DNA of 64,000 nt. Source: Hysterangium stoloniferum (taxonomy: Eukaryota > Basidiomycota > Agaricomycetes > Hysterangiales > Hysterangiaceae). The notes under the pieces were generated by a model. It saw only the letters and a program-made list of their open reading frames with translations. It had not been told where the DNA came from and made no database searches. Below are positions 2,040-64,000 of the stretch, one piece after another. Numbering within the stretch: the stretch's first letter is position 1; the number at the start of each line of letters is the position of its first letter. A program made the translations under genes and the position numbers. The DNA is taken from positions 186,001 to 250,000 of the forward strand of contig WHVD01000046.1 of NCBI GenBank assembly GCA_015178975.1. Reading direction: 5' to 3'.

Positions 2040-2811
2040 CCACTTTATATTGTTAATATCATATCTCTGCAGATGCCTGGAGATGCAGATAAGGCCAGCA
2101 TCCCAGCCCCAACTGGATTTCTGGAAAGCCTTGATGCCCTGGTTGTGGTGACTGGAGCACCATGCATTCTTCAACTCTAAGTGAATTGGCAGCCCTCTCT
2201 TGACTTTCTATTCTTTGTGTTAGTATTAGGAAACTCCATGAGAATCCACTCACATTTCAGTGGGGAGTCCCAGGTTCTCCCTCAGACTCTAATTCTATCT
2301 CCACCACCTTGCACTAGAAACATTCTGTTAATCATGACTTGTTTAAAAGAAATTATGTTTACCTTTTCTGAAAACAACCTAGGCATTTGGCTTTCTCCAC
2401 CACAACCTGAGTGACCTCCACCTTTTCCTCCACTGCCTTCCTGGCAGTCTCCTCCTCTTCCCTCTCCCTCTGCTCCTTTCCTCCTTCTATGTGACCAATG
2501 CCACTGGTATTTTCTCTCCATCTCTTCCTCCTCCTCTCTTGACCACCACTCCTCCTCCTCCCACTGGCATCTTTTCTCCTCATGATGCTCCATGATTTGA
2601 GCAGCAGTGAAGGGGACCCAGATGAGTTGAATGTGGGGCTTGGGCAGTGGGGATTGCCACACATTTTGGTGTTGGTTTTAGCACTATAAAAATTTGTATG
2701 ATAAGAATATTCAAATTCTTCAGAATTTTTTATAGGCTCCTCACAGTTTGAACAATACCTCCAGATCACCTGATGTCTTGACACATGTGCATAAGCAATA
2801 AACCTTATCAA
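2040..2811 (-). pseudogene. Antisense coiled-coil/Zn-cluster gene of a Gypsy element, decayed copy 1
   Basis: This is a degenerate relative of the intact gene at 9164-10104. On the minus strand it has a glutamate-rich coiled coil (2660-2365) broken by one frameshift, then a donor in the same place as copy 2 (AAAAG followed by GTAAAC at about 2363). A short acidic second exon follows near 2310-2240, then a block near 2170-2080 aligning with the cysteine cluster, of which the GWGLGCWP-like part can still be read but most cysteines are lost. Its 5' side lies next to a polypurine tract and an LTR on the plus strand, the same arrangement as copies 2 and 3. It is not functional. Confidence 0.65.
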
Positions 2812-2841
2812 GTTCTAGGGCCTCCTTGGAAAATTGGCCTC

Positions 2842-2854
2842 AAAGGGAGGGTAC
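2842..2854 (+). promoter_or_regulatory. Polypurine tract before 3' LTR
   Basis: A purine run AAAGGGAGGGTAC stands directly before an LTR starting TGTTAGGG. The same tract, slightly varied, precedes the LTR at 8988 (minus) and at 62676 (plus). It would prime plus-strand DNA synthesis of the Gypsy element that owns the antisense gene at 2040-2811. Confidence 0.7.
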
Positions 2855-3923: not shown

Positions 3924-4535
3924 TTGCTCTCACTATGCAAGTGGTCTCACAATTTCACAATTCTTAACCAACCCTGGCCACACCCACTGGTTTTCCATTA
4001 TTTCCATGCTTCTGTACACTAACTGCAAGTCATTGATACCTTTCAAATGCAAAAAATGTGCTTCACAGCCTCTTACTGGATACATGGACACCAATGGTAG
4101 TATGGTGATTGCCATGCTATTTCTAGCTATGCATTTATGTTAAATGGTGGCACCAGATCATGGAGTGTGAAGTGACAAGAAATTGTGTCACTGTCAACAA
4201 TGGAGAGCAAGGATGTGGCTGTAACCCATGCATCCAAAGAAGTACTTTGGCTATGCTCACTGCTCAGCCAGCTGTTTGGACACAATGCATGCACAACTTC
4301 ATTTTTGGACAATCAGTCAGCAATCACACTCACAAAGGATCATCAGTATCATGCTTGCACAAAATATATTGACATACATTTCCACTTCATCCATTGGATC
4401 ATCAAAAATGGTTCAATTCACCTCATTTACTGCCCAACTGGTGACATGGTTGCTGATACACTCACTAAGCCACTCCTTCCACTACCATCAAGTACTTTGC
4501 TTCCAAATTGGGACTATCTACAGCTTGAGGGGGAA
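3924..4535 (+). pseudogene. Ty1/Copia polyprotein 3' end (RNase H), decayed
   Basis: The reading frame from about 4111 to 4530 carries the C-terminal RNase H hallmarks of Copia elements: SWSVK, then SLSTMESKDVAVTHASKE, DNQSAITLTKD, a TKYIDIHFHFI block and a final TGDMVADTLTKPL. Stops interrupt the part before 4185. It ends in a purine-rich tract (4527-4535) followed by the LTR start TGTTGGATTATC. The same segment occurs at the right edge of the window on the minus strand (63712-64000). Confidence 0.8.
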
Positions 4536-4612
4536 TGTTGGATTATCAAGGACATTATAGTCCAGTGGACTCAGAGTTATTGAAAGGTCAAGAACAATGG
4601 CCTGTGCCTCAG
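4536..4612 (+). repeat. Copia LTR 5' fragment
   Basis: The LTR starts TGTTGGATTATC immediately after the Copia polypurine tract. Only about 75 bp remain before Gypsy LTR sequence takes over. In the inverted partner at 63638-63711 the same Copia LTR is interrupted by the complete start of that Gypsy LTR, so here the junction has been deleted. Confidence 0.65.
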
Positions 4613-8143: not shown

Positions 8144-8776
8144 TAACCTTTCCAGGACCCTGACATCAGTGCCTCAGACTATGGAGCCACCACCTCAGCA
8201 CCCTGACACTTGGTTTATGTTGTTATCCCTGTCTTTCAGCCCCTGCAAATTGTTCATGCCCTTGTAACCCTCCAGCACCCCAACATTGGAGCCCTTGGAA
8301 TATGGTACCACTGCCTTGGCATCCCAAAACCTGTTTCATTGTAGAATAACCCTTTAGGCATTCTGTTCTGTCTCCATTCCAATGCTCTCCCTTCATCTGT
8401 CCTATATGTAAATGTTACTTGCCACCTCATACCTTTTAGAATACTTTTGTTACATCACATTTAGTTCTAGTTTGTTCCTTGTTCCTTTTCATACTTCTTT
8501 TGACCCATGATGACCTCTCGCTTCTCTAATCAGACCTCCAATCATCTGTTACACTTAGTATGAAGTCTTTCTCATGTATGCTACAGTTCCTTAGTTTGAA
8601 ATTCAACCTAGATTACCCCATCTTGTTTAAGCCCTCTTTACATTTCTCTTAATACTCTTCACTCTATGACTCTTAGTATTTTCAGCCATCTGGTCAATTG
8701 AGCTAAGTTTTGTCTTTAGTTTTTATCATACTATCTGCTCTGTTGGAAATACTGGAGCAGCGTAACACAGGTCTGC
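8095..8776 (+). repeat. LTR (TGTTAGGATCC family), 3'-truncated
   Basis: It starts inside the RNase H frame after GGAAC. The partner copy (46540-47382, minus) is complete at 843 bp and is flanked by GGAAC on both sides. Here similarity ends near 8776, where a different LTR fragment begins. Confidence 0.75.
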
Positions 8777-8988
8777 TGGACGGAGTCTGGTGACTGGTGG
8801 TCGGAGATAGACAAGTGTGGGTGCCATGGGTATTCCAGTGACTGATACATGAAGTAATGGGTGTCAAATACAGACAGTCTGACATACAGAGTCCAGCAGG
8901 TATTCTGGTAAACTGACAATTGGTGCATGTAGGGTGCAGGTGCCTATAAGTTAGTGCCTGGAGTCTGGCAGGAATTCCAGTCATAACA
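8777..8988 (-). repeat. 3' LTR fragment of the minus-strand chromovirus
   Basis: Read on the minus strand it begins TGTTATGACTGG directly after a polypurine tract (9001-8989, GAAAGGAGGGTAC). It belongs to the 816-bp family and its distal part is lost at the junction with 8776. It marks the 3' end of the element whose pol is at 13378-10105. Confidence 0.7.
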
Positions 8989-9001
8989 GTACCCTCCTTT
9001 C
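8989..9001 (-). promoter_or_regulatory. Polypurine tract
   Basis: On the minus strand GAAAGGAGGGTAC lies directly before the LTR. It is equivalent to the tracts at 2842-2854 and 62666-62675 and defines the antisense gene at 9164-10104 as internal to the element. Confidence 0.65.
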
Positions 9002-9163
9002 ATGCCAAAGTCCCAAAGAGGCTCTAGAACTTGATAAAGTTTTGTCAGTTACACATATGTGTCAAAGAGTCATGTGACCTGGAAGGTAAGGTTCAGATGT
9101 GATGAGCCTATTTAAAAAATTGAAAAATAGAAATTTCTTCTTCTTTATTACCCCTATCATCAA

Positions 9164-10104
9164 ATGGGTCCAAAGCTGACACCATGCAGACCAATGCCAA
9201 CCGCCAGGCCCTCCACGGGTGCCATACCATGGGCTCCACTCACCACTGCCCAAATCCTGGTGCAGCTGGAGGAGACATGCCAAAAACAAGAGGAGGCAGA
9301 GAAAAAGGCCAAGGAGGCTGAGGAGGCATTGGAGTGGGAATACCAGGTGGCTCTGGTTGCAGAGGAGGCCAAGGAACAGAGGAGGAAAGATAAGGAGGAG
9401 GCTGCACGGGTTGCTGTGGAACAAGCCAAGGTGGTTGCAGAGAAAGCCACAGTCACTATGGGAAAGGTAAGTCCAACACCTTTTACTCTATTTCTTGCTG
9501 ACTTGGTTTCTAGCACAAGGCAGTAGAAATTGAATCGCAATCCGAGGGGGAGCTGGAGGGCCCTCAAAAGGTGAGTCTCAGGTCTATGGGTTATTCTGGG
9601 GACTAACCACATCAACAGAAAGTAAGAAAGATGGCACCAGTCTGCTTGGAGGTGAAAAATGACCTGCAGTGTTCCAGTTGTAATGACCAGAACACTGACT
9701 GCTATTGGAAGACTGGGTGGGGATTGGGCTGCTGGCCATGCATGCACCTCACAGCGAGGTGCTCACTGGTTCACAAGCCCACAGGGTCCATGGCATGGGA
9801 AATGGGCAGGTCAGACAGACCTGGGGCCTTAGAGGAGGTCTTGAGGTGGATAGCTGAGAGCATAGAGGCCCAGAGTAGGTTGCTTGAGAAAAGAAACTGG
9901 GTGCAGGTAGTCATAGCCAAGAATCTCTATGGGCTCCATGGGGAGTTCTGGATGTTCCTGGTGGAGTATGGCAGGTATGTATATGCAGAGCCACAGGTTG
10001 GGAGTTCTGAGGTGTCCAGTTTGGGTGAGGACAGCATCCACAAGGATGTGGAAGAGCTCCAACAGGAGCTTAATGAAGTTGGGCAGAAAAATATGATCAA
10101 GTAA
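9164..10104 (+). CDS. Antisense coiled-coil protein with Zn2Cys6-like cluster (intact copy 2)
   Basis: This is an uninterrupted three-exon gene: 9164-9466, 9514-9570 and 9619-10104, joined at GTAAGT..CTAG and GTGAGT..ACAG without breaking frame, giving about 281 residues. Residues about 30-100 are an E/K/A-rich coiled coil. Exon 2 is acidic. Exon 3 carries C-x2-C-x6-C-x9-C-x2-C-x6-C (CSSC..DCYWKTG..CWPC..RCSL), the spacing of fungal Zn(II)2Cys6 domains, but without the usual run of basic residues after the second cysteine, so DNA binding is uncertain. The C-terminal third is predicted helical (WIAESIEAQSRLLEKRN). The gene lies antisense between the chromodomain end of a minus-strand chromovirus pol and that element's polypurine tract. 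Its last codons overlap the truncated chromodomain, so the native C-terminus may be lost. Function is unknown; related broken copies lie at 2040-2811 and 61340-62491. Confidence 0.7.
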
Positions 10105-40939: not shown

Positions 40940-41432
40940 ATGCTCGCTAAATCCATCGCCGCCCTTGGATTCTTCAGTATCCTCGCTGTCGCCGCCCCCA
41001 ACCCCTGGAACGAGCCAAACCAGTGTGGCACCTGTAAGCCCAATTAAATAACTAGACTGTGTTTAATCTCATAATTGACTGACAATGTTTTAGCACCGGC
41101 CCTGTGCTGCACCGCTGTTGGTGCGGCCTCCGACAGCGCTGTCATCAGTGCCCTTGGCCTCCTCGCCGGGCTCCTTAACGGAATCACAGGTATCGTTGGA
41201 GTGGGATGTGTGCCGATCATGTCAGTCTTTTAGCAGTTATTCCCTTTATCATTATTATTTAACCAATAACTATTTCGACAGTGGTACTGTCAACTGTGCC
41301 CAACAACCCGTCTGCTGCACTGGCAACGAGTTTAACGGACTTGTGAGTTCTTTTATTACATGATTCTGTTTTAAGATTTTTATGTTACTATAATAATAGA
41401 TCAACATTGGCTGCTCCCCTATCTCTCTTTGA
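40940..41432 (+). CDS. Class I hydrophobin 4 (divergent N-terminus)
   Basis: Exons 40940-41033, 41094-41220, 41282-41342 and 41400-41432; 104 residues. It has the most changed N-terminal region: MLAKSIAALGFF, then APNPWNEPNQCGTSPALCC, two residues longer before the first cysteine. The core (ALGLLAGLLNGITGIVGVG, NCAQQPVCC, GCSPISL) is like the others and the eight cysteines are intact. It is the last complete unit before the transposon block. Confidence 0.9.
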
Positions 41433-41928: not shown

Positions 41929-42360
41929 GTATCTGGGGAAAACCTGCAGATGTTCCAGATACAGGTAGGACTTGGATTCACCTTATGGACAGGGGGGATA
42001 TGGGAAGCCTGGGGGCTCCAAGAATATGCTATGTCTCAGTTGGAGAGCCCACAGGTTCCAAGAATATGTCAATGTAAAGTTGATGGGGCAAGTAGGTATT
42101 AGTACTGGAAGATAGGTAGAATACTGAGTCAGTACTAACTCAATTTTCTGATTGGGTTGTAAGTACAAACAGATCCTAGACTATATAGAACTAATAGTTA
42201 TTGTACTACTAATCTGGTGAGACAAAAAGACTAAACAGGTGAGGAAAGAATGATATAAGTCCAAATGGGTACAGAGTCTGTGGATAATGCAGCTAGATGG
42301 AGGATAGTGGGGCTGGTTTCCCAAGGTAAGCTGCATGAAAATCAAGTACAATTTCCATGG
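41929..42360 (-). repeat. Gypsy LTR fragment at the array boundary
   Basis: Minus-strand sequence follows the chromodomain stop of the element on its right and matches the 630-bp LTR family (CAGATTAGTAGTACAATAACT, TATATAGTC, AATCAGAAAATTGAG). It ends abruptly in the hydrophobin repeat at 41928/41929. No target duplication is visible, so the junction is a rearrangement rather than a clean insertion end. Confidence 0.65.
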
Positions 42361-42729
42361 CATTCCTGAGTTCCATGGCCATCATCCAAGAAGTTTCTTC
42401 ATTGGTGTCCTCATAACCTGCCCACTTAACTAAGTAAAGCAGTTTGCAAATGTGTCAATGGTTGTCAATTTTTGAATCTAAAATCTGTGAGATTTTAAAC
42501 TTGGGTTCTCTGTCTATAATGACTGGAGGGGGTGGAGGTTGTACACAGTCTGGGATGGTGTTAGCAGTACAGGGCTCTAAAATTGAAACATGAAATACTG
42601 GGTGTACTGCACACATGCTATCTGGGAGCCAGTGGGTCCAAGCTACTGAGCCAGCTTGTGCTGTAATCTCCAAGGGTCCTAAGTACTTTTCAACAAATTT
42701 CTTGGAGGGTTGGGGTTTCCAGAAGAATT

Positions 42730-42997
42730 TGTTAGAATTGGTGATGAAAACACCCTTTTCCTAGGGGCAGTTCATCCATTTCTTCACTTTTTCATATGAA
42801 GATGCTAATTGTGGACCATGCATTCTGAGGTTAATGCATGCTAGAACCAGTGTACACCTAAACTAGCACCAAACCTATCATGTCAGAAGGTGATTCACTA
42901 ACTGACACATTGATTGACAAACAAGTACTATTATTACAAGTCTATTCTCCCTTGTAGATCGTGTATTACAATAAGTCAACTCATACTATTTTTAATA
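42730..42997 (+). repeat. Small LTR-like insertion, 268 bp
   Basis: It starts TGTTAGAATTGG, ends TTTAATA (CA to TA at the terminus), and is flanked by GAATT (42725-42729, 42998-43002). It interrupts the pol frame at FFW. The start resembles the solo LTR at 44967-45205, but the rest does not. Confidence 0.6.
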
Positions 42998-43288
42998 GAA
43001 TTGGGCTTTAGTTAAGACTGGGGAACCCACTGGAACCTGGTTCCTACTATGTCAACACCTACCTCCCTGTTTACAAGATGAGCCACCAACTGGACCCTGA
43101 CCAGATACCCCAGACCCCTTAGATGCTTGAAGATCTCTTTCCCAATCTGTTCCTAAGTAGGTTTGACATCTGGTTTATTATGCTCCTGTGCTTGTTCCTG
43201 TTCTGTCCTGACCTTTGTTCTTAGTATGTTCAACCCTGCCTTGTTTCTTGTTCACCCTTTTTATCTTTTTATCTTGGCAGATTAGTAG

Positions 43289-43631
43289 TGTTCAGGGATA
43301 GGGAGGCTCACAGAGGGTTTCCAGAGAAACCTGCAGATAATCTGGTAGGACTTGGCTTCAGCTTATAGGCTGTGCCATCATGAGATTGTGTCCAGGTGGA
43401 GTCTGGTGACTGGTGCATGAGACAGTCAGATATAGACAGGTTTGATGTGTGTGGGTCCCAGCAGGCACTCTGGTTGTGACTGTACTTTGGGTACCATATA
43501 GAGGGTTGGGTGCATATACAGTGGGGTCCAGATGCCGGCAGTTTTTCCAGTTAACTGTAACCTGGTGGGTATAGAGAGTTGGGTGCATGTAGGATGGGGT
43601 CCAGAGCCTGGTGGGTTTTCCAGTCCTAACA
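43289..43631 (-). repeat. Solo LTR, 343 bp, internally deleted 816-bp family
   Basis: Bounded by TGTTCAGGG and CAGTCCTAACA, flanked by AGTAG on both sides (43284-43288, 43632-43636). Both ends match the LTR family of 5513-6328 but the middle is missing. Confidence 0.8.
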
Positions 43632-43793
43632 AGTAGTATAATAATCTTTAGTGCTATATAGTTAAATAAATATGTGTACTTACAATCCAATCAGAAAATC
43701 AACTTAGCACCCATCTAGTATCTTATCTGCTTGTCCTAGTAAACTTTAAACCAGCATATTCCTGGAACCTGCAGGTCCTCCAACCAGAACATA

Positions 43794-44795
43794 TGTTAAG
43801 TTCTGGATCTCAGGTGGAATTCCCAGTGGATATTCCAGACACTTCTCGGAACATGTTCATGGAGTTCCTGGGGATTAGTTCAGGGAGTATTGGAATATTA
43901 CCAGAGTACAGATTGGACTTGGATTCAGCTTATGTGCTGCACCCTCATGCACTCACTTGGGTGTCCATATTTCAGAGGGCAGATATATCTGGAGTGTTTA
44001 CAAACACTTGGAGTTCCTGGGGGCTCTGGATGTCTGGAGTATGGAGAGTTCTGGATATTGAGTGGACAGAAAGAACACAGGAGAAGGTTAACTAAGTCAA
44101 GATTAAAACTAAAGAGTAAGTACATGACTATGGAAGACTATATAGATGTTCCAATTATTGTACTACAAGTCTGGGAGTATAATAAGACTTATTTGGAACT
44201 GTTTCCAAACTAAGGATATAATAACAAGTAAGATACATGAGGAACAAGGATGGGGACAGATCAGGGAACAAAAGCAGGAACAATAAACAAATGAAAGAAC
44301 ATCTGTCAACCAGTCAGTTACCAAATGTGGAACAAAGGAAGCGAGTCGGAATATCCACAGACATCCAATACTATCAGGAAATGGATCCCAACACTATAAT
44401 GACTAAGTGTTCATATTTCCGGAAAGCCATGGGTTCTGGGGAAGTCAGAACATTGGCATAGAGAGGTGACAAGGATGATCTGATGAAGGTTGGGCCACAG
44501 ACCAAAGTATCTAGATCAAACACCAGGAGTCTGGCCAGAGTCTGGGTCAGGAAATGACCAAGGACACTTGGAGATACTAGCCAGGGAATGCTGGAGTCCA
44601 ATGGGTTCAGGGTCATAACAGGAGGTGTCTAGTCGAGGGTAGAATACCAGAATGGGATGTGAAGGGTACTTGAGGGATGAGGGTCAGGTTCTGGTGGACT
44701 CTGGACCCTGATACTAGTCCAGAAGATATGTAGTTCAGAACTTGATATGATTTCCAGGAAATACTCTGTGGAGTCTCCAGGAACAGATCTTCACA
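43794..44795 (-). repeat. Solo LTR, 1002 bp
   Basis: On the minus strand TGTGAAGATCTG to GAACTTAACA, flanked by ACATA (43789-43793 and 44796-44800). The host LTR reads continuously across the site once it is removed. It contains the shared subterminal motif near 43914-43937. Confidence 0.75.
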
Positions 44796-44966
44796 ACATA
44801 CCTTGCTCTCAGAAACCACAGGTTCACTGTCCCTACCTCCTTGCATAATCCCAGACTCCATAGGCCCCCTGTATCCTCTTGTCTGATATTGGACTCAAAA
44901 ATCATGCAAGGGTGCAGCACATAAGCTGAAGTGAAGTCCTACCTGTCCTGGAACATCTGCAGGTTT

Positions 44967-45205
44967 TGTTAGAATTACAGGCAGGGGATCGCAGGTATAA
45001 GCAAGAAGTTTGCCAACTCTGTTGCAAACACATGTAGATACAATCATGTAGCTGCTCTATTTAACTAAAAGGAACAATAGATTTTTGTGACACAATATAA
45101 AGGTGGAACAAAAGAACAATAAAACAAAGGGACAAGCTAACAACAATGGGGTGGCGTAACTGGTGTAGCACATTGTGCATGCTCACATAATCCATTATTC
45201 CAACA
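44967..45205 (+). repeat. Solo LTR, 239 bp, Copia-like
   Basis: TGTTAGAATTAC to CATTATTCCAACA, flanked by GGTTT at 44962-44966 and 45206-45210. The short length and the TGTTGGAATA-type inverted end are typical of Copia LTRs. Confidence 0.8.
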
Positions 45206-46539
45206 GGTTTACCCCATCCACCCACCTGTAAACCCCAAACTTAACATTGGGTGGATGTTATCACTTTTCCAGGGTTCTTGGTGGAGTTCATCAAGGTCCA
45301 TCACAAACTCTTGAGCACAAGCTGAAGCAAGGTTGCTTTCTGGGTGTACCATGATGTTGGCATTGTAACCCTTATTGGCAAAAAAGGGTGACATGCCAGA
45401 GTGGTGCGTGGTCTGTTGTTGTACACAATTCTGCTAGTGGAAGAAGGGATTTCTAATTGTCCTGTTGGTAGTCACAATATACTGTATGTAGAGGTATTGT
45501 TCTAGTATATGATTGACATGCTTGGTTTGTCCATCACTTTCTGGATGATATCTAGATGTATAGTGTAATTTTACATTGAGGGCTGTTCTGACAGATTTAA
45601 AGAAATATGATACAAATTCAGAACCCTGATCAGAAGTTATGTGGGATGGGACACCATGCTTGGAAAATACATGAATGATAAACAGTTCCACTAGTTGCAT
45701 GGTCCTAATGGTGTCATGTGCAGACATGAAAATACCTTGCTTGGAGAATCTCTCAATAACAACTAGGATTGCAGAATAACCTTCAGAGTCCAGTAGGTGT
45801 TTTGATAAATTCTATTGAAATTGAATTCCATAGGTATTCCAGTACTGTAAGTTGTTTGAGAAGGCTGTATGGTTTGTGACATTGTGATTTAGAGTATGAA
45901 CAAGTGATGGATAATTTGCAATAGTGCTTGACAAAATATCAGAGTTCAGGCCAAGTATACTCTCTGTGAATCATTGCTAGAGTCTTGTTGAGCCCCAAAC
46001 ATCCCAAGATTATGTGGTCATTTTTGTCCTGGATGATTCTGAGATGGAAGCTGTTGGAGTCCAGTACATATATGCAATCATCAAGTCTAATGAAACCTTG
46101 CGGGTCTTGAGACCACTGAGGTTTGTCAGGGCCCATGGGCTTGCCAAGATGTGCCTTGGTTACAGGGTAAGTTGAGTGGAATTGTAGATAGAATGTCTTG
46201 CTGTAGTTTCTCAATGTCCATAATGATAATACCATGTATGAATGGATGGATAAGGTAAGTAGCACAGACTGATGTGAAAAGTTGCATAGTCATGAAATAA
46301 CATAGGTTTCAGATTATGTGGATTTACCATGGCATAGTCACTACTCCCCTTTTTTGGGTAGGCATTCCATTTTCTAGTCAAAGCATCAGGTTTTCCACCA
46401 AGGTGGCTGGGTTAAAAATGGATAATCATATTAAAGGCAGATAGGTACTTGGACCAATGGACTTGCTGGCAGGTCAAAATCTTCATGGTGGAAAATATTC
46501 CAAGTTCTTGTGATCTGTGACAATATCAACCAGTGTTCC

Positions 46540-47382
46540 TGTTGATCTAAGCAAGGGGGCAAAAGGGGATGATTTTGGAGGTCCGAAAATGGTAAATTGT
46601 ACAAATAAGGAGGTCCTAAAATGGTGAATTGTACTAATTGGGAGGTCTGATTCTATAAGGCAAAGTGGAGCTTGGCTTCAATGTATGTGTTGCACCCTCA
46701 CATGAACTGTTAGGATGCTCCAGTATTTCCAACAGAGCAGATAGTATGATAAAAACTAAAGACAATACTTAGCTCAATTGATCAGAGGGCTGAAAATACT
46801 AAGAGTCATAGAGTGAAGAGTATTAAGAGAAATGTAAAGAGGGCTTAAACAAGATGGGGGTAATCTAGGTTGAGTTTCAAACTAAGGAACTGTAGCATAT
46901 GTACATGAGAAAGACTTCATACTAAGTGTAACAGATGATTGGAGGTCTGATTAGAGAAGTGAGAGGTCATGATGGGTCAAAAGAAGTATGGAAAGGAACA
47001 AGGAACAAACTAGAACTAAATGTGATGTAACAAAAGTATTCTAAAAGGTATGAGGTGGCAAATAACCTTTACATATAGGACAGATGGGGAGAGCATTGGA
47101 ATGGAGACAGAACAGAATGCCTAAAGGGGTATTCTACAATGAAACAGGGTTTGGGATGTTGAGGCAGTGGTACCATGTTCCAGGACTCCAATGTCAGGGT
47201 GCTGGAGGGTTACAAGGGTATGAACAATTTGCAGGGGCTGAAAGACAGGGATAACAACATAAACCAAGTGTCAGGGTGCTGAGGTGGTGGCTCCATAGTC
47301 TGAGGCACTGATGTCAGGGTCCTGGAAAGGTTATCAAGGTAAGACCAAGTTATGGGGGCCTGAAAGGGTGAGGATCCTAACA
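46540..47382 (-). repeat. LTR, 843 bp, TGTTAGGATCC family, complete
   Basis: Minus strand TGTTAGGATCCTCACC to TTAGATCAACA, flanked by GTTCC on the plus strand (46535-46539 and 47383-47387). It splits an RNase H frame between HYVEGMGT and [11 protein letters not shown] 37-bp direct repeat (GGAGGTCCKAAAATGGT..) lies at about 46578-46650. The left-hand copy at 8095 is truncated. Confidence 0.85.
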
Positions 47383-47602
47383 GTTCCCATGCCTTCCACA
47401 TAGTGTTGCCATGCTTTGAAGGCTTCAAATATTGCAAGAAGTCCCTTGTTGTGGACATTGTAATTGAGCTTGGGTTTTGTGAAAGTCCAGGAGAATAAAG
47501 GTACCAGGTCCACTTCACCATTGGAATCCTGGATAGACAAAATTGCACCTAGGTGAGAGGTGTCCATGTCGACAATGAGTGGAGCATCTGGTTTCCAATG
47601 TG
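47383..47602 (-). pseudogene. RNase H piece of the right-hand Gypsy copy
   Basis: Minus-strand reading WKPDAPLIVDMDTSHLGAIL and NKGLLAIFEAFKAWQHYVEG equals 7880-8094 of the left copy. It is separated from the rest of its pol (51862 onward) by the truncated element 47603-51861, with loss of about 210 bp. Confidence 0.8.
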
Positions 47603-53858: not shown

Positions 53859-54885
53859 TGTTACGACCCATTCCTGGATGTTTCAATATCCGACTTCCGA
53901 TATCCGACTACGGAACATCATAGTTACCATATCTTCTGCATTCTTCCCTTGTTCCACATTTGGTAATTTGTCCGCTGACAAGTATTCACTCGTTTGTCTA
54001 TTATATTCCCGTTTCGGAATATTGTCTCCCCGATATGTCTTATTGTATTTCCATTTTAAGAATACTTCCATTTCCATCTTATTATGGTCTTAGTGTGAGG
54101 AGTATACTTTTACCACAGTTTCATTGTGGTAAAACACTCCTTTTATTTTAATTATATTTTACATATTCTATTCATATTTTTCTATCTTTCATATTCTTTG
54201 AATATTGCATATTTCATTAGTTTGAAGAATTGTGTATACTTGTGGGTGCACTCAGCACCAATTAGAACTCAGACACACTTTAACCCAAGAACCACCACTC
54301 GTAAGACACAAACTAGGTCTACTACGAGCGGTGATCAGGGTAACGTGTCAGCTACCACATAGGTAGCATTATCTGAACTACTGAACACTTCTGGCCTCGA
54401 ACTATAACAGTTGAGGCCTCCACTCAAACCATCGCACTCGTTGACTCCTTCGTCATCTCGTGCTCCTTCTCTCACTTTCTCTTATATTGCACCGAATAGG
54501 TCAATATCCTTCCTTTCTACTCATTTCTTCGTATATAGAACGGTCAGAACTTCCGCCACTCTTCACACTTAGTTTGTAGTACAATAACAAGAAGACTTAC
54601 ATATATTAGTTTCCACGAATTTGTACTTTACCTTAGATCTGATATCAACTTAGTTTCTTATTCCTTCTTCTGTCTTTCTGTACGCTCGATATTTGGAACT
54701 CTTCGGAACTCTGAATATCCGTATCTTCCATTGTAAGTCTCACTTCTGAAATTAAGGACTTTGAGCGTTTGCGTAGAGGTGCAGCACATAAGCTGAAGCT
54801 GACGTCCTGACCCTATCTGGTAGTTCCCAACTTCCCGGTGACTTTCCAATAGTTCTGGAATAAGTTCCCGACACGGCACTTAACA
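53859..54885 (+). repeat. 5' LTR of the complete chromovirus
   Basis: TGTTACGACCCATTCC to GGCACTTAACA. 1027 bp, of which 474 plus 5 bp are the inserted solo LTR; net 548 bp against 544 bp for the 3' LTR. ATATATTA at 54601 lies about 34 nt before AGATCTGATAT (54635-54645), the predicted transcript start and self-primer. Scattered substitutions separate the two LTRs. Confidence 0.9.
54094..54567 (+). repeat. Solo LTR, 474 bp, in the 5' LTR
   Basis: TGTGAGGAGTATAC to CTCTTCACA, flanked by CTTAG (54089-54093, 54568-54572). The 3' LTR of the host element has the site without it. Its 3' end (CTTCGTATATAGAACGGT..) matches, inverted, the start of the insertion 59628-60256, so both belong to one family or close relatives. 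Confidence 0.9.
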
Positions 54886-54887
54886 GT

Positions 54888-54898
54888 ATATCAGATCT
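54888..54898 (+). promoter_or_regulatory. Primer binding site, self-priming type
   Basis: ATATCAGATCT begins two bases after the 5' LTR and is the exact complement of AGATCTGATAT at 54635-54645 (and of the same segment in the 3' LTR, about 62970). Confidence 0.7.
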
Positions 54899-54919
54899 CA
54901 ACTCTGCGACTCGCTCATC

Positions 54920-56155
54920 ATGGGTCCCAAATGCAAAGCTGCTGAAGGACCATCCCAACTTCAATCCCCATTGCAACTTTACACCACTCAACCTGAAACC
55001 CCAATTCAGCCGACAACATCAGCCTCAGTTGAAGAAGTTACCGAGGAGGTTACCGAGGTAATGAAGGACCCCAATATTCCCCACACTTCTGACAACGAAG
55101 CAGAAGATCAGCCAGAGACATTGAAAAAGAAATCTTCCGACGAACTGACTGAAATGTTGTTTATCAACTCCATTGTGAAATTCGCTGACTATTTGAAATC
55201 TCCTGAGGATAGTAAAGAATCATCCCGCACCGGAGTCAAAGAACCCAAACCATTTACCGGCAAGGATCCGAAAAAATTGAAGAATTTCCTTCTCCAATGC
55301 CATTTCAGTTTCTGTGATCGACCTGCTGCATTTAAATCCGACAGTTGAAAAGTCAATTTCACACTCTCTTATCTCAAGGATACCTCTCAAGATTGGTTCG
55401 AACCCAGACTATCTGGAATATCCGACGAGACACCCGTATGGCTCGATGACTGGGACGCTTTTGTGGAAGAACTGGAAACTAATTTCGGACCTTATGATCA
55501 ATCTGGCGAAGTGGAAAATGAATTAATGACGCTTAAGATGAAGGACAATCAACGAGTTTCCGATTATCTCGTCAAGTTCAATACCCTCGCCGCACGATGT
55601 GGATGGGACGATTCCACCCTCAGGCACCATTTCTATATGGGACTTCCGTCACGCCTTAAAGATGAAATCTGCAAAGATGGGAAGCTGAAAACTCTCTAAC
55701 TCATGCAGATTAAAGCTCAAACATCCGATGCCCGTTATTGGGAACGAAAAGCCGAGGTCTCTCGAGAGAACCCGACGGAACGTTCTCAGAATAACAAGGC
55801 GTCGACCAGCAAGTCTTCCAGCAATAACTCAGGCAATAACACCGGCAACTCTGGTACTAATACTGGTAAATCAAACTCTGACCGGAAAAAAAGACAATAA
55901 ATCCAACAAGGATAAACAGTCAACTTCCAACAAACCCGACATTTCCCATTTGTTGGGTACCGACGGTAAACTCACCCCGAAGGAGAAACAATGACGTATG
56001 GACAATGACCTCTGCCTTTTCTGCGGGAAAGGTGGACACAAGGTTTCCAACTGTACTGTTAAATCTAACTCTTCCAAGGCCTGCACAGCAACTTCCACTA
56101 CGACTACAACATCTAAGGAAAAACCCGCCACAGAGTCGAAAAAAGAGTAAGCAAC
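54920..56155 (+). pseudogene. Chromovirus gag with CCHC knuckle
   Basis: ATG 54920 (MGPKCKAAEGPSQLQSPL). The capsid part includes [39 protein letters not shown] and DYLVKFNTLAARCGW; an N/S-rich linker precedes an intact zinc knuckle CLFCGKGGHKVSNC (about 56011-56052). One frame is interrupted by TGA at 55346, TAA at 55697, a frameshift near 55880 and TGA at 55992. Gag would package element RNA in cytoplasmic particles. Confidence 0.85.
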
Positions 56156-57469
56156 CCTCCTGAATCTGCACAGACAGAGGGTTGCATTGACTCTCTCCAT
56201 GTTTTTGAGGTTATCCATCTCAACGCGTCCACTCTCTCTAATCCCGATTCATTATTTGTAAAACTTGTCTCTGACTTTCTTGGAAATTTAGTGTTCCGAG
56301 CTCTGATAGATTCCTGCTCCACACACTGTTTTGTAGATACCACCTTTGCCATGAAACATAATCTGAAACACCATTCTGTTCCCGCAATTTCTTTGCATTT
56401 GTTTGACGGCACTAGCAATACGGCAATCACCCAAGCCTGCGACATGTCTATCCGGTTCCCTTGTGGAACATCCCAGACGGTTACCTTTTTCGTAACACAG
56501 TTGGACTCTAGCTGTTCAGTAGTTCTTGGATACAACTGGCTCACCCGATATAATCCGTTGATTGACTGGGTATTGGGCAGTATTAATTTCCGAATTCCCG
56601 ACACTTCAGTTCCTCCTGCAGCATCTTTTCCGGCCAAAGCCTTTTTGGCATCAATGGCATCTCCAGCTTCTACCGAAACCTCTGAGCCTCCGAAAATCTC
56701 TCTCATCAATGCTTCGGCATTTGTTAGGGTGAGTAAACTGGATGGTTCACAGTGTTTTTCGATCAGCTTAAAAGTTGATGACGCATCTGGATGTTTTGCG
56801 ACTCCAGAATTATCCAAGCTAAAAGCCGACCTGGAAGGAGTTCCTGAAAAATACCATGATTTTGCGGACATTTTCAGTAAGCAAAAAGCTGACAGGCTTG
56901 CACCCTATGACTTAAAAATCAATATTGAGCCCGGTTCAAACCCTCTGTTAGGACCTATTTACCCATTATCCCAATCGGAACTTTCATCCATTCAGGAGTT
57001 CCTGGATGAACATCTGTCGATAGGTTTTATCCATCCCTCAAAGTCTCCGTATGGAGCACCCGTCCTTTTCGTCAGAAAGAAGGATGGCTCCCTTCGACTC
57101 TGTGTCGATTTCAGAGGATTAAATTCCATCACACGGAAAGATAAGTATCCACTTCCACTCGTTACCAATTTACTCGATGCCCCACGGAAAGCTCGAATCT
57201 ACACCAAAATAGACCTCAAACACGCTTATTATTTGGTTCGAATTGCTGAGGGTGATGAATGGAAAACTGCTTTTCGGACTCGCTATGGATCCTTTGAATG
57301 GTTGGTTATGCCGTTCGGCCTTACCAATGCCCCTTCCGCTTTTCAACGTTTTGTTAATGATATATTTTCCAACATGCTTGATGTATGTGTTATAGTCTAC
57401 TTGGACAACATTTTGGTATTTTCCAAGGATCCCGCTCTTCACGATGAACAGGTCCGTGAAGTCTTCTGA
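56156..57469 (+). pseudogene. Chromovirus protease and reverse transcriptase, N-terminal part
   Basis: Frame 56291-57469 covers protease ([16 protein letters not shown]; the usual DSG reads DSC, later [13 protein letters not shown]) and RT ([92 protein letters not shown]). The second catalytic Asp of YLDD is Asn (a single G-to-A change); other copies in the window keep YLDD. It stops at 57467 (TGA), shortly before the DNA element at 57504. Confidence 0.85.
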
Positions 57470-57503
57470 AGACTCCGTAAAAACAGTCTTTTTGCCAATG
57501 GTA

Positions 57504-58287
57504 AGGTAGGCGTCACTTTAATTTGGCACCTGTTTATGTAAGCAAAAAAGTGACCTACTCGCACTCCTTTCTGTGCTTCCACAACATAGATAATCTGTAA
57601 TTAAAGCCCAGGGAAGTGGAGTTGGGATCCATTCCTCCAGTTCTCAGGTTTAAAACTTGAAAAATAATTCACCCTTGCCAAGTAGTAGGACTTACAAATT
57701 TTAACTTTTTTTTTGAGTCTCTGAATGCTTACAAACTTGTTTCCATGTGATTCTGAGATTTTCAAAATTTCGCAAGTGTCAGTATTGGCCGCTTACATAA
57801 TCATCACGTGATATATTGGGCAGCCTTGTTTTAAGGGCCTAAAATTGGGAAAGAAAACTGTATTAAATTCAAATATATGTACTTATCTTACTTACATAAA
57901 AATTCTCCTAAGAAAAAGAGGGTATAGCTGCACATGTACTTGTGCAGTAAGCTGTGCACTTGATCACAGGCCACATTACATAAGCAGTGCAGTGGCAAAC
58001 ACGTGGTTGCACAGTTCTACTACCATGCCTCAGAAGTCTAAAGCTGCACAATCTTGCATCAAAAACCTTGGATCAACAAAAGATACCATGGCCATCATAC
58101 ATTACCTCCAATCATGCTTGCACAAGTATGGCAAGCTCAAATTAATATGCCTGTACTATTATAGTGACTCCAATTTATTTTTTGACTTCATAATAATTTT
58201 TTCAAAAATTTGATTCACAAATTTGGCCGCTCTTGGCACTTAGTAATATGATTACATAAGGTGCTGAACTAAAGTGACGCCTACCTT
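57504..58287. mobile_element. Non-autonomous DNA element, 784 bp, in pol
   Basis: 18-bp perfect inverted ends, AAGGTAGGCGTCACTTTA, extended to about 28 bp with mismatches (TTTGGCACC/TTCAGCACC). Removing it restores the RT frame exactly (..FANG-EKCYFDMDS), so there is no visible target duplication. Inside, an open frame from 57845 to 58213 includes MPQKSKAAQSCIKNLG, which resembles N-termini of some fungal DDE transposases as I recall, but nothing more of a transposase is present. Confidence 0.75.
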
Positions 58288-61244
58288 GAAAAATGTTACT
58301 TTGACATGGATTCTATTGAATACTTAGGTTTCATTATCGGACCTGAGGGTCTCCATATGGATGAAACCAAGGTTCAAGTTGTCCGTGATTGGCCCGAACC
58401 ATGGAAAGTCAAGGACATTCAGTCATTTTTAGGTTTCGCCAATTTTTACCGTCGTTTTATTCGGAATTACTCGGATATTACAGTACCACTTACTCATCTT
58501 ACCCATAAAACTCAACCATGGGTTTTTGACGACAAATGCCGCTCTGCTTTCCAGACTTTGAAAAATGCATTCACTTCGGCCCCGATTCTTTCCCATTTGG
58601 AAACCTGATGTTCCGATTATTGTGGAAACCGATGCTTCCAATTATGCAATTGCTGCGATTCTTTCCATTCAAGATTCTGATGGTGAAATTCATCTGGTCG
58701 CATTCCTTTCTCAGACACTGAAAGTGTCTGAACTCAACTACGACGTTCATGATAAGGAACTTTTGGCAATTTTTGAAGCTTTCAAACATTGGCGCCATTA
58801 TCTCGAAGGTTCCGCAACTCCCATTGACGTTGTTACCAATCACAAAAATCTTGAATATTTTTCTACCACTAAACGTTTAACCCGCTGGCAAGCCCACTGG
58901 TCCGAATTCCTTTCCACTTTCAACATGATTATCCATTTCTGACCTGGACGTCTTGGTGGAAAACCAGATGCCATGACTCGATGATGGGATGTCTATCCTA
59001 AAGAGGGGGAAAGTAACTATTCCGTTGTTAATCCGCATAACTTGAAACCGGTTTTTACAATGCAACAACTTTCTGCATCTATTTGAGTGACTTCCCTCTA
59101 CTATCCAATTGTGTGTAGCATCATGATTATGGACATTGAGCAATTACATCAAGATATCCTTTCCGCACTCACTTCCAATCCAGCTCTCAAGCCACACCTA
59201 GAAGTTCCTGACAATCCCGACCAACCCCAATGGTCACAAGACTCAAGGTTTCATCCGTCTCGATGGACATATCTACATTCCAGATTCCAACAATCTCCGA
59301 CTCCACGTACTTCAGTATAAACACGATCATCCAATCTCCAGACATTACGGCATTAACAATACTCTTGGTTTAATCCGTAGAGAATACACTTGGCCCAACC
59401 TCCGAGATTTCGTAACCCAGTTCTGTAAGTCATGCACCACCTGCTTACACTCTAAAACCCAGAGGCATAAGCCATACGGCCTTCTCAAGCAACTTCTGAT
59501 ACTGGAAAAACCCTGGAACTCAATTTCCATGGATTTTATCGAACAACTTCCAACGTCTGAAGGCTTTACATCCATTCTAATTGTTGTGGATCGATTCTCA
59601 AAACAAGGCATTTTCATACCCACTCATTGTAAAGAGTAGTGGAAGTTCTAACCGTTCTATATACGAAGAATATCGACCATTTAGGTACGACACTAAGATG
59701 TATTGACTGTCGAAGTCTAATACAGAATGAACGCGTATTGACTACTTAGTTCAATATGGTAGAAGGAAGTAGCTATCTAGAATAAGGTAGAGAGCTAAAT
59801 GAATAAGTAGAATCGACTGTCAAGTGCGATTCTGAACGACTGCTCGAGAGTAAAGTAGAGTACTAGAGAGTCGAATAATAGAATAGCATGGATGTGGTCC
59901 ACGTGAGTTGTGATAAGGATTGAGTTTCGACTGGTACAGTTTGAAACTCTGATAGAGTAGATAGCTAAAGCCCGTCTGTGACGGTCGAGACGATACACCA
60001 ATCACAACTTACAGGACACTAATGGGTGTCTGGGTAAGTTGTGGTTGCGGTGTAAAAAGTGTCTGAGTTCTAAACTACGGGTGCTAGAATACATAAGTCT
60101 GGCATGTGTGCGCCCACAAGAGTTGATGTACTGCATACATAGGTCGTCAAACTAATTATAGATATAATAAAAGAGAGAAAATAGAAATAATAAAGGAAAT
60201 ATAGTAAGAGCCCATCCGACTATATTTCCTGAGTGTATTTCACCATACCTCTCACACTCATGATACAATCACGTCCTTACAATTAGTGGAACTTTTCATT
60301 ATTCACGTATTTTCCAAACACAGAGTTCTGTCTCACGTAACTTCCGATCGAGGTTCCAAGTTCGTCTCCCATTTCTTCCAGGCCCTCAGAAAAGCCCTCG
60401 ACATGAAACTACACTTCACCTTGGGATATCACCCAGAAGGTAATGGACAAACGGAACGCGTTAATCAAACATTGGAACAATATATCCGCATCTATTGCAA
60501 TTATCAACAGGACAACTGGAAATCCCTCCTTCCGATCGTGGAATTCACCTACAATAACTCTCCGAATGCAACTACCGGTGTATCTCCTGTTTTCGCCAAC
60601 AAAGGCTATAATCTGAATCTTACAGTACATTCCAAACAAGATTTGGCTTCTGTCCGTGCTCAAGAATTTATTACTGACCTTGACGAATTACATCAAGAAC
60701 TTTGGAAAGCTATTTCTTCTGCACAGGAATATTATCAACATTCCGCAGACAAAACAGGATCCTGCCTCCTAATTTTAAAATTGGTGATCAGGTTTTTGTA
60801 AAAGCTCAATTCTTCCGTACCACCCGACCTTCTAAAAAACTGGCTGAGAAATTTTTAGGCCCATTTGAAATTATAGCACAAGCTGGTTCACTCTCATGGA
60901 CTCTCTGACTTCCCGATAGTATGTGAGCAGTTCACCCCATTTTCCACGTTTCCATGTTAGAACCCTGTGCTCCTAACAAAATCCCGGAATGTATTCAACC
61001 TCCATCCCCTCCGGTCATCATTGACGGAGAACCTGAATTTGAAGTTTCCGAAATTTTGGATTCTAAAATAGACAATCGCCAATGTACGTGTAAATTGCTC
61101 TATTTAGTCAAATGGGCAGGTTATGAAGGTACCGACGAGGAAACTTCATGGATATTGGCCACGGAACTTGGACACGCTATGGAAATTGTTACTGACTTCC
61201 ACACAGCTTATCCAAGCAAACCCGGACCTTTATCATCACTCTAA
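58288..61244 (+). pseudogene. Chromovirus RT end, RNase H, integrase and chromodomain
   Basis: RT connection (EKCYFDMDSIEYLGFIIGP, KDIQSFLGFANFYRRFI), RNase H (IVETDASNYAIAAILS, NYDVHDKELLAIFEAFKHW), integrase HHCC (HDHPIS..HYG, CKSCTTC near 59430), core with DDE residues (SMDFIEQL; SHVTSDRGSKF; HPEGNGQTERVNQTLEQ), a GPFEIIAQAGS domain and a C-terminal chromodomain (FEVSEILDSK, LYLVKWAGYEGTDEETSW, 61040-61200), which in such elements directs integration to marked chromatin. Interrupted by frameshifts (58608, 59250, 60770), stops (58942, 59083, 60908) and a solo LTR at 59628. Confidence 0.9.
59628..60256 (-). repeat. Solo LTR, 629 bp, in integrase
   Basis: Minus strand TGTGAGAGGTATGG to TACTCTTTACA, flanked on the plus strand by CTCAT (59623-59627, 60257-60261). 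Removing it restores the integrase frame IPTHDTITS. Related to the solo LTR at 54094 but in the opposite direction. Confidence 0.9.
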
Positions 61245-61339
61245 CCCTTTTCTGTTTCTTTCTGTTCAGTCTCCAACACTTCTGACACTTCCATTATCAC
61301 ACTCATTTTTAGGTTTTGCAAGTCAAAAAATATATATTA
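61245..61339. other. Spacer between convergent pol and antisense gene
   Basis: About 95 bp separate the chromodomain stop from the antisense gene stop. T-rich and pyrimidine-rich; could serve both 3' ends. Confidence 0.4.
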
Positions 61340-62491
61340 TTAGGACCATTTTAGAGTCTCTGATACCCCAAATCCACTTTCCATCCCAACTCCCGTCTGA
61401 TCAGCAACTTCTGCACTTTCCACCATATCCTGCACCTCTTCATCCTCACTCTCTGATACTTCCAGCCCATTACCTGACTCCCACCCTTTTTCAACACATT
61501 CCACCAACAGATCATTAGGTTGTTCCCGTGCCTTATTGGAAAATCTCTTGGATACTGTGATAACACTGATGCTAACCATTATCTTCTCCAGAAAATTGTT
61601 TTGCCTCCGGAAATTCCAGATCAATGAACGGAAACCCTTTTCCTGGATCTCATTATGGCGATCAAGTGTATCCCGCATTTTCATGACCTCTGTCCCAATA
61701 AAGACCAACGTGTCAACGGTGTCCTTGAGGAGCTCAATGCCCATATTATCCGTTTTTGGCACCTCAGTTTCCGCAGCCTTGGCCGCTTCCGAACTTTCTG
61801 TGTCATTAGTTTTCTGAGCCTTCTCACCTTTTGGAACCCTTTTTGCGGTGAGAGTGCACAGAAGTTTGAGAACCACGCAGGGATAGCAAATTCCACCCCA
61901 TTTTACCTTCTGTTTCCAACACATCATACTCCGTATGGAACATCGATAACACAGATTGTCATGGATGACTTCCATCCATTCCAGAGCCTTGACCTTTGGC
62001 TTCTGTTTCGGAAGTTAATCAAATACCGACCTTTTGTAGATACACTTACTTTAGGACTTGAAGGTCCAGCCTCTCCCTCTACCTCCACCTCCACAGCTTT
62101 TCACTGTACCCAATAGTTATTGGTTGGAACCACAGAAAAATTTATGGATCGAACTTACCTTTCCTTCCCTTATCTCCTTAAGTTTTTCTGCTGCCTCCGA
62201 CTCCCGCTGTAATCTTTCCACCTCTTCCTTCTTTTTCCGAGCCTCTGCCGCTTTCCGTATCCACGCTTCTTTTTCCGCCTTCGCTCACTCCAACTCCCAT
62301 TTTTCCACCTCTTCCGCCTCTTTCAACTCCTGCATCAATGCCTTTTCCTCCTCCTCCTGTCGTCGCTTCAACTCCTCCATCCTTTGTCGTTTTTGTTGAA
62401 GTTCTGCGACCTTTGACATTTTTTGAAGTACGGCAATTTCGGTATCTGAATCTTCCGGGGTAGTGATGAATAATGGCCGACAAATCAACAT
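61340..62491 (-). pseudogene. Antisense coiled-coil/Zn-cluster gene, copy 3 (nearly complete, broken)
   Basis: Minus strand. Exon 1 (about 62491-62159) is a K/E/Q-rich coiled coil (MEELKRRQEEEEKALMQELK) with one TGA codon near 62287. It ends at AAAG/GTAAGT, the same place as in copy 2. The short second exon (about 62096-62045: KAVEVEVEGEAGPSSPK) has a TGA as its first codon, then GTAAGT. Exon 3 (about 61998-61340) carries C-x2-C-x6-C-x10-C-x2-C-x6-C (CYRCSIRSMMC, GGICYPCVVLKLLC) and a long acidic, helical C-terminus (DTVDTLVFIGTEVMKMRDTL; ESEDEEVQDM). A 1-nt frameshift precedes the cluster. It is longer than copy 2 at the C-terminus and probably shows the native end. It lies between pol and the polypurine tract of the complete chromovirus. 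Confidence 0.75.
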
Positions 62492-62665
62492 GCAAGTTGT
62501 GGATAAAGAAACAAAAACATTAATTCAAATATTTGGAGGTTTTTATACTCAGAACAACAGCCGAAACTCTCACCTCCAGAATTGCGTAAATTTGACGACA
62601 CATAATAATCAGCCACCGCTTCAATCACTCAGTACCTAATTGCCTCTATGGGACTTTGGCCTAAC

Positions 62666-63224: not shown

Positions 63225-63637
63225 TGCTGGTGCCAATGAACAGAAACAAGCAGGTATGAACTGGTAAATCAGTAGAATATTAAGTCAGTGCTAAGTTTAT
63301 TCTCTGATCAGATCATGAGTACAAACAGATTCTCGACTATATAGAACTAACAGTTATTGTACTATTAATCTGGTAAGACAAAAAGATGAAAGGGGAAACA
63401 AGAACAATGCAGAGTTGACCATACTGAGGCTAAGGATCTTGATGGAATAGGAACAAATACAGGGGACATAATAAACCAGGTTCAAAAAGACTCAGGAATG
63501 GATTGGGGGAGGGAACTTCAAGTGTATAGAGGGGCCAAGATATCTGGTCAGAGTTTGATTGATGGGTTATCCTGAAAAAAGAGTGATAACTGCTTATAGG
63601 GTATGATTTGGGCCCAGCAGGTTTCCCAAACCTAACA
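63225..63637 (-). repeat. Gypsy LTR, first part of the split LTR
   Basis: Minus strand begins TGTTAGGTTTGGG at 63637 and continues to the chromovirus insertion point; the remainder is 53858-53659. It sits inside a Copia LTR (63638-63711). Confidence 0.8.
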
Positions 63638-63711
63638 ATGTGGCAGGCATTGTTCTTGACCTTTCAATAACTCTGAGTGCACTGGACTATAATGTCCTTG
63701 ATAATCCAACA
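63638..63711 (-). repeat. Copia LTR fragment
   Basis: Minus strand TGTTGGATTATC (63711) to the point where the Gypsy LTR was inserted. The rest of the Copia LTR is not seen in the window. Confidence 0.7.
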
Positions 63712-64000
63712 TTCCCCCTCAAGCTGTAGATAGTCCCAATTTGGAAGCAAAGTACTTGATAGTAGTGGAAGGGAGTGGCTTAGTGAGTGTATCAGCAACC
63801 ATGTCACCAGTTGGGCAGTAAATGAGGTGAATTGAACCATTTTTGATGATCAATGGATGAAGTGGAAATATATGTCAATATATTTTGTGCAAGCATGATA
63901 CTGATGATCCTTTGTGAGTGTGATTCCTGACTGATTGTCCAAAAATGAAGTTGTGGGTGCATTGTGTCCAAACATCTGGCTGATAGCCAAAGTACTTCTT
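63712..64000 (-). pseudogene. Ty1/Copia RNase H end, runs off the window
   Basis: Minus-strand copy of the RNase H end at 4240-4535, including the polypurine tract and the DTLTKPL block. Continues beyond the window edge. Confidence 0.75.

Follow-up and report, generated by a model that had tools for sequence, protein, structure and literature searches.

Antisense accessory genes at the 3' ends of LTR elements are already known from deltaretroviruses and from the plant Retand elements. The literature on these systems describes HBZ of HTLV-1 as a spliced antisense nuclear bZIP factor that is expressed from a TATA-less promoter in the 3' LTR and acts on transcription from the 5' LTR (PMC10186651), and Retand Gypsy elements of plants as having ORFs in antisense orientation, for the most part TRP28, in the interval from pol to the 3' LTR (PMC11963269). 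The Retand elements with such ORFs have been recently active, DNA binding is predicted for the ORF products, and a regulatory role has been suggested by analogy with retroviruses (PMC11963269). In another host kingdom, LTR retrotransposons of bdelloid rotifers are also described as having acquired extra ORFs (PMC5408684), and it is in this description of extra ORFs that they resemble the element considered here. For fungi, we found no description of an antisense gene of this kind in an LTR element among titles and abstracts of the open-access literature, and the available part of the genome paper that reports Hysterangium stoloniferum treats transposable elements in general and does not mention one (PMC7550596). 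The sequence-only reading of the DNA analysed below knew of no description of the arrangement; this holds for fungi in the literature searched but not in general, given the Retand antisense ORFs (PMC11963269). A third, apparently unrelated case, in a fungus and with a different predicted DNA-binding motif, would if true point to repeated invention of antisense self-regulation.

The window analysed here is the whole 64,000-nucleotide stretch of H. stoloniferum contig WHVD01000046.1 from position 186,001 to 250,000, and it was set against the genome of this ectomycorrhizal basidiomycete (111 Mb, 554 contigs). Three copies of the antisense gene occur in the window, with the following features; L073 is a complete element of the same family, described below.

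2040 to 2854, minus strand: copy 1, a decayed remnant of the gene (exons 1 and 2 and part of exon 3), adjoining a polypurine tract and an LTR start at 2855
8767 to 8988, minus strand: remaining start of the truncated 3' LTR of the copy-2 element, matched by L073 sequence both beside and inside its LTR; boundary by reading
about 8990 to 9001, minus strand: polypurine tract of the copy-2 element, read from sequence
9109 to 9115, plus strand: TATA-like box of copy 2 (TATTTAA), 55 bp upstream of the start codon
9164 to 9466, plus strand: copy 2 exon 1, coiled-coil-like and highly charged; the spliced frame is open
9514 to 9570, plus strand: copy 2 exon 2, short and acidic, flanked by two basic clusters, kept in both subfamilies
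9619 to 10104, plus strand: copy 2 exon 3, with C-x2-C-x6-C-x9-C-x2-C-x6-C; a deletion alters the last codons
10094 to 13377, minus strand: fragmented pol of the copy-2 element, comprising RT, integrase, SH3 and a truncated chromodomain
55203 to 61245, plus strand: gag-pol region of the copy-3 element, ending in the chromodomain and broken up by two insertions
61340 to 62002, minus strand: copy 3 exon 3, open, with C-x2-C-x6-C-x10-C-x2-C-x6-C
62050 to 62103, minus strand: copy 3 exon 2, with TGA as its first codon (direct reading)
62159 to 62491, minus strand: copy 3 exon 1, with one premature TGA
62541 to 62547, minus strand: TATA box of copy 3 (locus L009), 56 bp upstream of the start codon
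62676 to 63219, plus strand: 3' LTR of the copy-3 element, within a 92% match to locus L075; ends read from sequence

In copy 2, the three exons, separated by GT-AG introns, splice into an open frame of 281 aa. Immediately 3' of the gene, on the other strand, comes pol, including the SH3 domain and the start of the chromodomain region; the polypurine tract and LTR end (8988) lie on the gene's 5' side. Relative to a complete relative about 390 bp are missing, which comprise the last codons of the gene, the spacer and the C-terminus of the chromodomain. Copy 3 is the mirror image: pol on the plus strand to about 61245, the gene on the minus strand from 62491 to 61340, a polypurine tract, and an LTR from 62676. 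Its introns and cysteine spacing are as in copy 2, yet it contains two premature TGA codons. The kinship of copy 1 to the gene is clear from a local alignment score of 360.5, against at most 76 in 60 shuffles. Because this alignment ends within the cysteine cluster, and no adjoining pol piece was found, copy 1 does not display the full layout. Thus, of three Gypsy 3' ends previously said to have the same layout, copies 2 and 3 do, while of the copy-1 end there remain a recognisable piece of the gene, a polypurine tract and an LTR start.

The sequence-only reading had also pointed out that copy 2 is open through three exons, which is correct but says little by itself: its CpG observed/expected ratio is 0.03, and CpG decay yields few stops. 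The ratio is 0.53 in copy 3 and 1.31 in a young copy, and both window copies, copy 2 above all, have decayed by CpG loss. Judging the gene from the window copies alone was dropped for this reason, and most of what follows draws on copies across the genome. The CpG loss of old copies, set beside values above 1 in young ones, is what CpG methylation or a RIP-like process would be expected to leave.

The complete element L073 has LTRs of about 820 bp that are identical over the 719 bp comparable, open gag (438 aa) and pol (1304 aa) frames, and an antisense gene that is open when spliced. Its Pfam matches above cut-off are Retrotrans_gag (3.1e-14), RVT_1 (1.9e-37), RT_RNaseH (7.2e-36), Integrase_H2C2 (6.4e-20), rve (4.3e-11), SH3_Tf2-1 (1.9e-21) and Chromo (2.9e-07). 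The element is a chromovirus, that is, a Gypsy element with an integrase chromodomain, with gag and LTRs present in the complete copy. It resembles Retand elements in that the extra ORF lies antisense between pol and the 3' LTR. Retand, however, is a non-chromovirus plant lineage with TRP28 (PF04195), whereas the fungal element has a basidiomycete host, a chromodomain, two predicted introns in the antisense gene and a six-cysteine cluster. No match to PF04195 was found in any exon protein scanned, so the element is not Retand.

Exon 3 is abundant in the genome. First-look candidates numbered 1256 with the copy 2 query, 587 with copy 3 and 1375 with a young copy, and 150 candidates were scored per query; exon 1 of the young copy likewise matches at least 150 scored places. 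Among the 150 exon-3 matches listed for the young-copy query, 109 are stop-free and at least 19 are 100% identical to the query. The element family has therefore amplified recently, which makes the self-regulation idea developed below directly testable. The copies fall into two subfamilies, c2 and c3, that are only about 25% identical in exon 3 and 31% identical over the full spliced proteins (young copies), and that have in common the intron positions, the basic clusters around exon 2, the six cysteines and the TATA box. A chance ORF or artefact is ruled out by the copy number, the dN/dS values given below and the conservation of the introns. A telomere-targeted family was considered because many copies lie near contig ends; this was not supported, as both ends read stop inside pol without telomeric repeats.

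Protein matches in a database of 5.8 billion sequences amounted to three partial proteins, all from H. stoloniferum, one of which matches the genome at 99% over 137 residues. No relative from another fungus was among the matches of the protein searches, one of which scored the 7992 candidates that shared most words with the query. With the gene nearly absent from annotation, genes of this kind may go unnoticed in other fungal genomes whose repeats are masked.

A chromodomain lies antisense on the 3' side of the gene, within the 1.5-kb flank, at 57 of 64 distinct places (68 loci minus 4 duplicates by coordinates). Four of the seven exceptions (L007, L037, L043, L067) have no chromodomain in the stretch and three (L042, L047, L048) have one on the same strand only. 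When compared with the element, six of the seven contain LTR or internal sequence and L042 carries the chromodomain itself, so none of the 64 places was seen free of element sequence, and we read the seven as rearranged remains. Between the 150 gene matches and the 150 chromodomain matches listed there are 111 pairs, and in all 111 the chromodomain is antisense on the gene's 3' side with a gap of 198–235 bp. The 39 in each list that lack a partner do so partly because each list holds only the best 150 matches. For 14 of the 39 unpaired chromodomain matches, a comparison of the lists by hand placed exon 1 no more than about 3 kb away, on the side where the layout predicts it.

In the six full gene models built for young copies, each of the two introns measures 48–54 bp and lies in phase 0, and all four splice dinucleotides are intact in 66 of 73 aligned distinct loci, one of the 74 loci not being alignable. 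(A pattern scan for exon 2 matched 10 of the 74 loci; the splice-site counts come from the alignment instead.) Among the matches listed, none runs across the spliced junctions in intron-less form, so no processed copy was seen. The introns are oriented for the antisense mRNA, which would be spliced, whereas in sense genomic RNA they would go unrecognised; this would explain how introns persist through retrotransposition. At C93 (about 151167–152138) and C222 (about 54751–55728) exons 1 and 3 seem to be joined in a single uninterrupted reading frame of 339 and 341 aa respectively, yet the exon spacing suggests that the introns are still present.

Of the 46 rows with a start pattern, 43 (38 of 41 distinct places) have a TATA-like box 50–65 bp upstream of the start codon; the pattern was not found in 33 of 79 rows (74 distinct loci considered), and one of the misses, L080, has no upstream sequence. 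This is a raw count without a chance control, and as the copies are related it amounts to two independent observations, one in c2 and one in c3, rather than 38. The promoter sets the gene apart from HBZ. Like HBZ and the APH genes of HTLV-2/3/4, it runs antisense near the 3' LTR of its element and is spliced by prediction, the likeness drawn here being one of arrangement. HBZ is however a bZIP protein expressed from a TATA-less promoter in the 3' LTR, whereas the fungal gene has a TATA box inside the element, between LTR and gene, and a cysteine cluster. By analogy, HBZ is likely a functional counterpart of the fungal gene, and the fungal case likely has both the arrangement and the logic in common with Retand and HBZ, with a different host, element type, promoter and predicted domain.

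Selection on the reading frame was estimated from copies of both subfamilies. Twelve c3 copies, picked as open and CpG-rich, gave a median dN/dS in exon 3 of 0.18 (66 pairs, range 0.10–0.47), or 0.19 with CpG-affected codons masked. Eight c2 copies, picked as open, six of them CpG-poor, gave 0.22, or 0.20 masked. Picking open frames biases these values slightly towards low dN. Exon 1 had a median of 0.21 and the chromodomain one of 0.13 (six copies each). Differences at codon positions 1, 2 and 3 numbered 693, 522 and 1968 (10 c3 copies, 45 pairs). Since pol and the antisense gene lie apart both in L073 and in all 111 listed pairs, this third-position bias cannot be the product of an overlapping frame. 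At the codon level the case for purifying selection on the antisense gene, with a median dN/dS of about 0.2, is solid. The earlier suggestion of a gene kept by this element family is thus well supported by position, conserved introns and purifying selection: in the copies examined, homologues are neither mostly free-standing nor evolving neutrally.

These data bear on two other explanations. The first is that the antisense RNA alone matters and the frame is incidental, for which there is a parallel in the non-coding roles that antisense RNA of HTLV-1 and HIV-1 is also described as having (PMC10186651). The position bias and low dN/dS, with no overlapping pol to produce them, indicate selection on a protein, so that this explanation seems scarcely credible and is already largely refuted by the codon-level pattern. 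The second takes the gene to be a captured host gene, a passenger without a role for the element, and it gains some plausibility from introns that look host-like and from a zinc-cluster-like motif (weak PF00172 matches, see below) of a kind typical of fungal host regulators. A passenger would not, however, be expected to show a dN/dS near 0.2 when copies from different lineages are compared, to have its introns and promoter in common between the subfamilies, or to be present in the recently inserted L073, and no host gene was found among the matches listed; we regard capture without function as very unlikely.

What the protein, 294 aa long in the young copies, might do is suggested by the order of its parts. 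Exon 1 is charged and, by inspection, coiled-coil-like; the short acidic exon 2 follows, set between two basic clusters; next come the six cysteines, a predicted helical stretch (from a low-confidence model) and an acidic tail. The basic clusters flanking exon 2 are conserved between c2 and c3 and together resemble, by inspection, a bipartite nuclear signal, so the predicted protein is likely nuclear. An alignment of 15 copies from both subfamilies shows no change at any of the six cysteines. Fungal Zn2Cys6 domains have the consensus C-x2-C-x6-C-x(5-12)-C-x2-C-x(6-8)-C, and the spacing in the 15 copies agrees with it. In its C-x2-C-x6-C-x(9/10)-C-x2-C-x6-C cluster, basic clusters, coiled-coil-like part and acidic region the protein resembles Gal4, Ppr1, Put3, Hap1 and Leu3, while differing from them in scoring below the Pfam cut-off, in having its coiled-coil-like part before the cluster rather than after it, and in being encoded by a mobile element.

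Profile comparisons place the likeness mainly in the cysteines. Six of the 15 members match PF00172 at E<=1, with scores shown of 8.8 to 20.8 bits (best E 0.00041), all under the gathering threshold of 21 bits. The profile was often matched as two separate halves, and the best scores come from CpG-decayed copies; four young copies, three of c3 and one of c2, gave E values of 2, 2.4, none and 0.94. A Pfam scan of the exon-3 frames of copies 2 and 3 in the window returned no match to PF00172. An hhalign comparison with stretches of the five factors named above aligned all six cysteines with a probability of 25% and a score of 23.7. Column permutations that kept only the cysteines (40 trials) scored 15.8 in the median and 24.4 at most, at least one reaching the real score, which indicates that the likeness to zinc-cluster factors rests mainly on spacing. 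In Gal4-type factors, DNA is contacted by basic residues that lie between the second and third cysteines; these residues are not conserved in this protein. A search of solved structures with the protein found no match, and two structure models were poor (mean pLDDT 42 and 47). The Zn2Cys6 reading first made from the cysteine spacing therefore keeps its spacing and its invariant cysteines, and draws no support from the Pfam cut-off, the structure search or the models: the protein is a zinc-cluster candidate and not a proven member of the family.

Many zinc-cluster factors prefer the half-site CGG, and this triplet is in excess in the LTRs. The c2 LTR contains 55 against a shuffle mean of 38.7 and the c3 LTR 16 against 7.9, and in neither case did any of 200 shuffles reach the count. 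Two gag-pol stretches lean more mildly in the same direction (18 and 8 of 200 shuffles reach the counts). The excess was examined after the idea had been formed, and we take it as a lead only.

We propose the following scheme. From the TATA box an antisense mRNA would start between LTR and gene, to terminate within the spacer ahead of pol or close to it. The spliced product would be translated into a protein that enters the nucleus by means of the basic clusters flanking exon 2, forms dimers via exon 1 and binds zinc through the six cysteines. It would then bind CGG-containing sites, perhaps in the LTR, where its acidic tail would tune sense transcription of the element. The steps of nuclear entry, dimerisation, zinc holding, CGG binding and transcriptional tuning are modelled on established knowledge of zinc-cluster factors and of HBZ. 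The features on which the scheme builds are solid as properties of the DNA: the gene's position and strand, its conserved splice sites, TATA box and six cysteines, its low dN/dS, and its occurrence in an element whose LTRs are identical. Our main reading, that of a chromodomain Gypsy family with a selected, two-intron antisense gene whose predicted nuclear protein regulates transcription of its own element through a predicted zinc cluster, has in our estimate about an even chance of being right (roughly 0.5). Slightly under that, and so tentative, is the fuller statement that the family encodes its own antisense zinc-cluster factor, with a TATA promoter and introns, to control its own LTRs, as an independently arisen fungal counterpart of HBZ.

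A nuclear protein of this kind could also serve other ends. Instead of working as an ordinary promoter regulator, it may be an anti-silencing factor that binds element copies and protects them from CpG methylation or heterochromatin. Plant VANDAL elements with their VANC protein set a precedent for such a role, and the predicted nuclear, DNA-binding-like protein fits it. So does the CpG content of the family, since old copies have lost nearly all CpG and the youngest retain it; a ratio ranging from 0.03 to 1.31 suggests that CpG-directed decay, most simply methylation, affects the family that carries the gene. Pfam scans, on the other hand, show no known demethylation factor, and we consider an anti-silencing role unlikely. 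Alternatively, the target of the protein could be not the LTR but host genes or the choice of target site, on which it would act in trans, for instance by partnering the integrase chromodomain. The gene does adjoin the chromodomain end of pol, and its predicted product is likely nuclear. But the proximity follows from the layout alone, and the CGG excess of the LTRs leans towards action on the element itself, so that action in trans appears quite unlikely.

Other features of the window concern related or neighbouring sequences. Compared with L073 and L075, the copy-3 element has its pol interrupted by the two insertions at 57505–58288 and 59628–60255. Related pol remains lie on the minus strand at 42325–47600, with the chromodomain end at about 42325, and no match to the antisense gene was found beside them. 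Matching repeats were seen by eye at 4185–4583 (plus strand) and about 63600–64000, with an ORF resembling the RNase H end of Copia elements; a Pfam scan of 4185–4580 gave no match at E<=0.01. Finally, a hydrophobin-like gene with short introns lies at about 40941–41432 on the plus strand, and its protein, spliced by eye, matches PF01185 at 9.7e-17.
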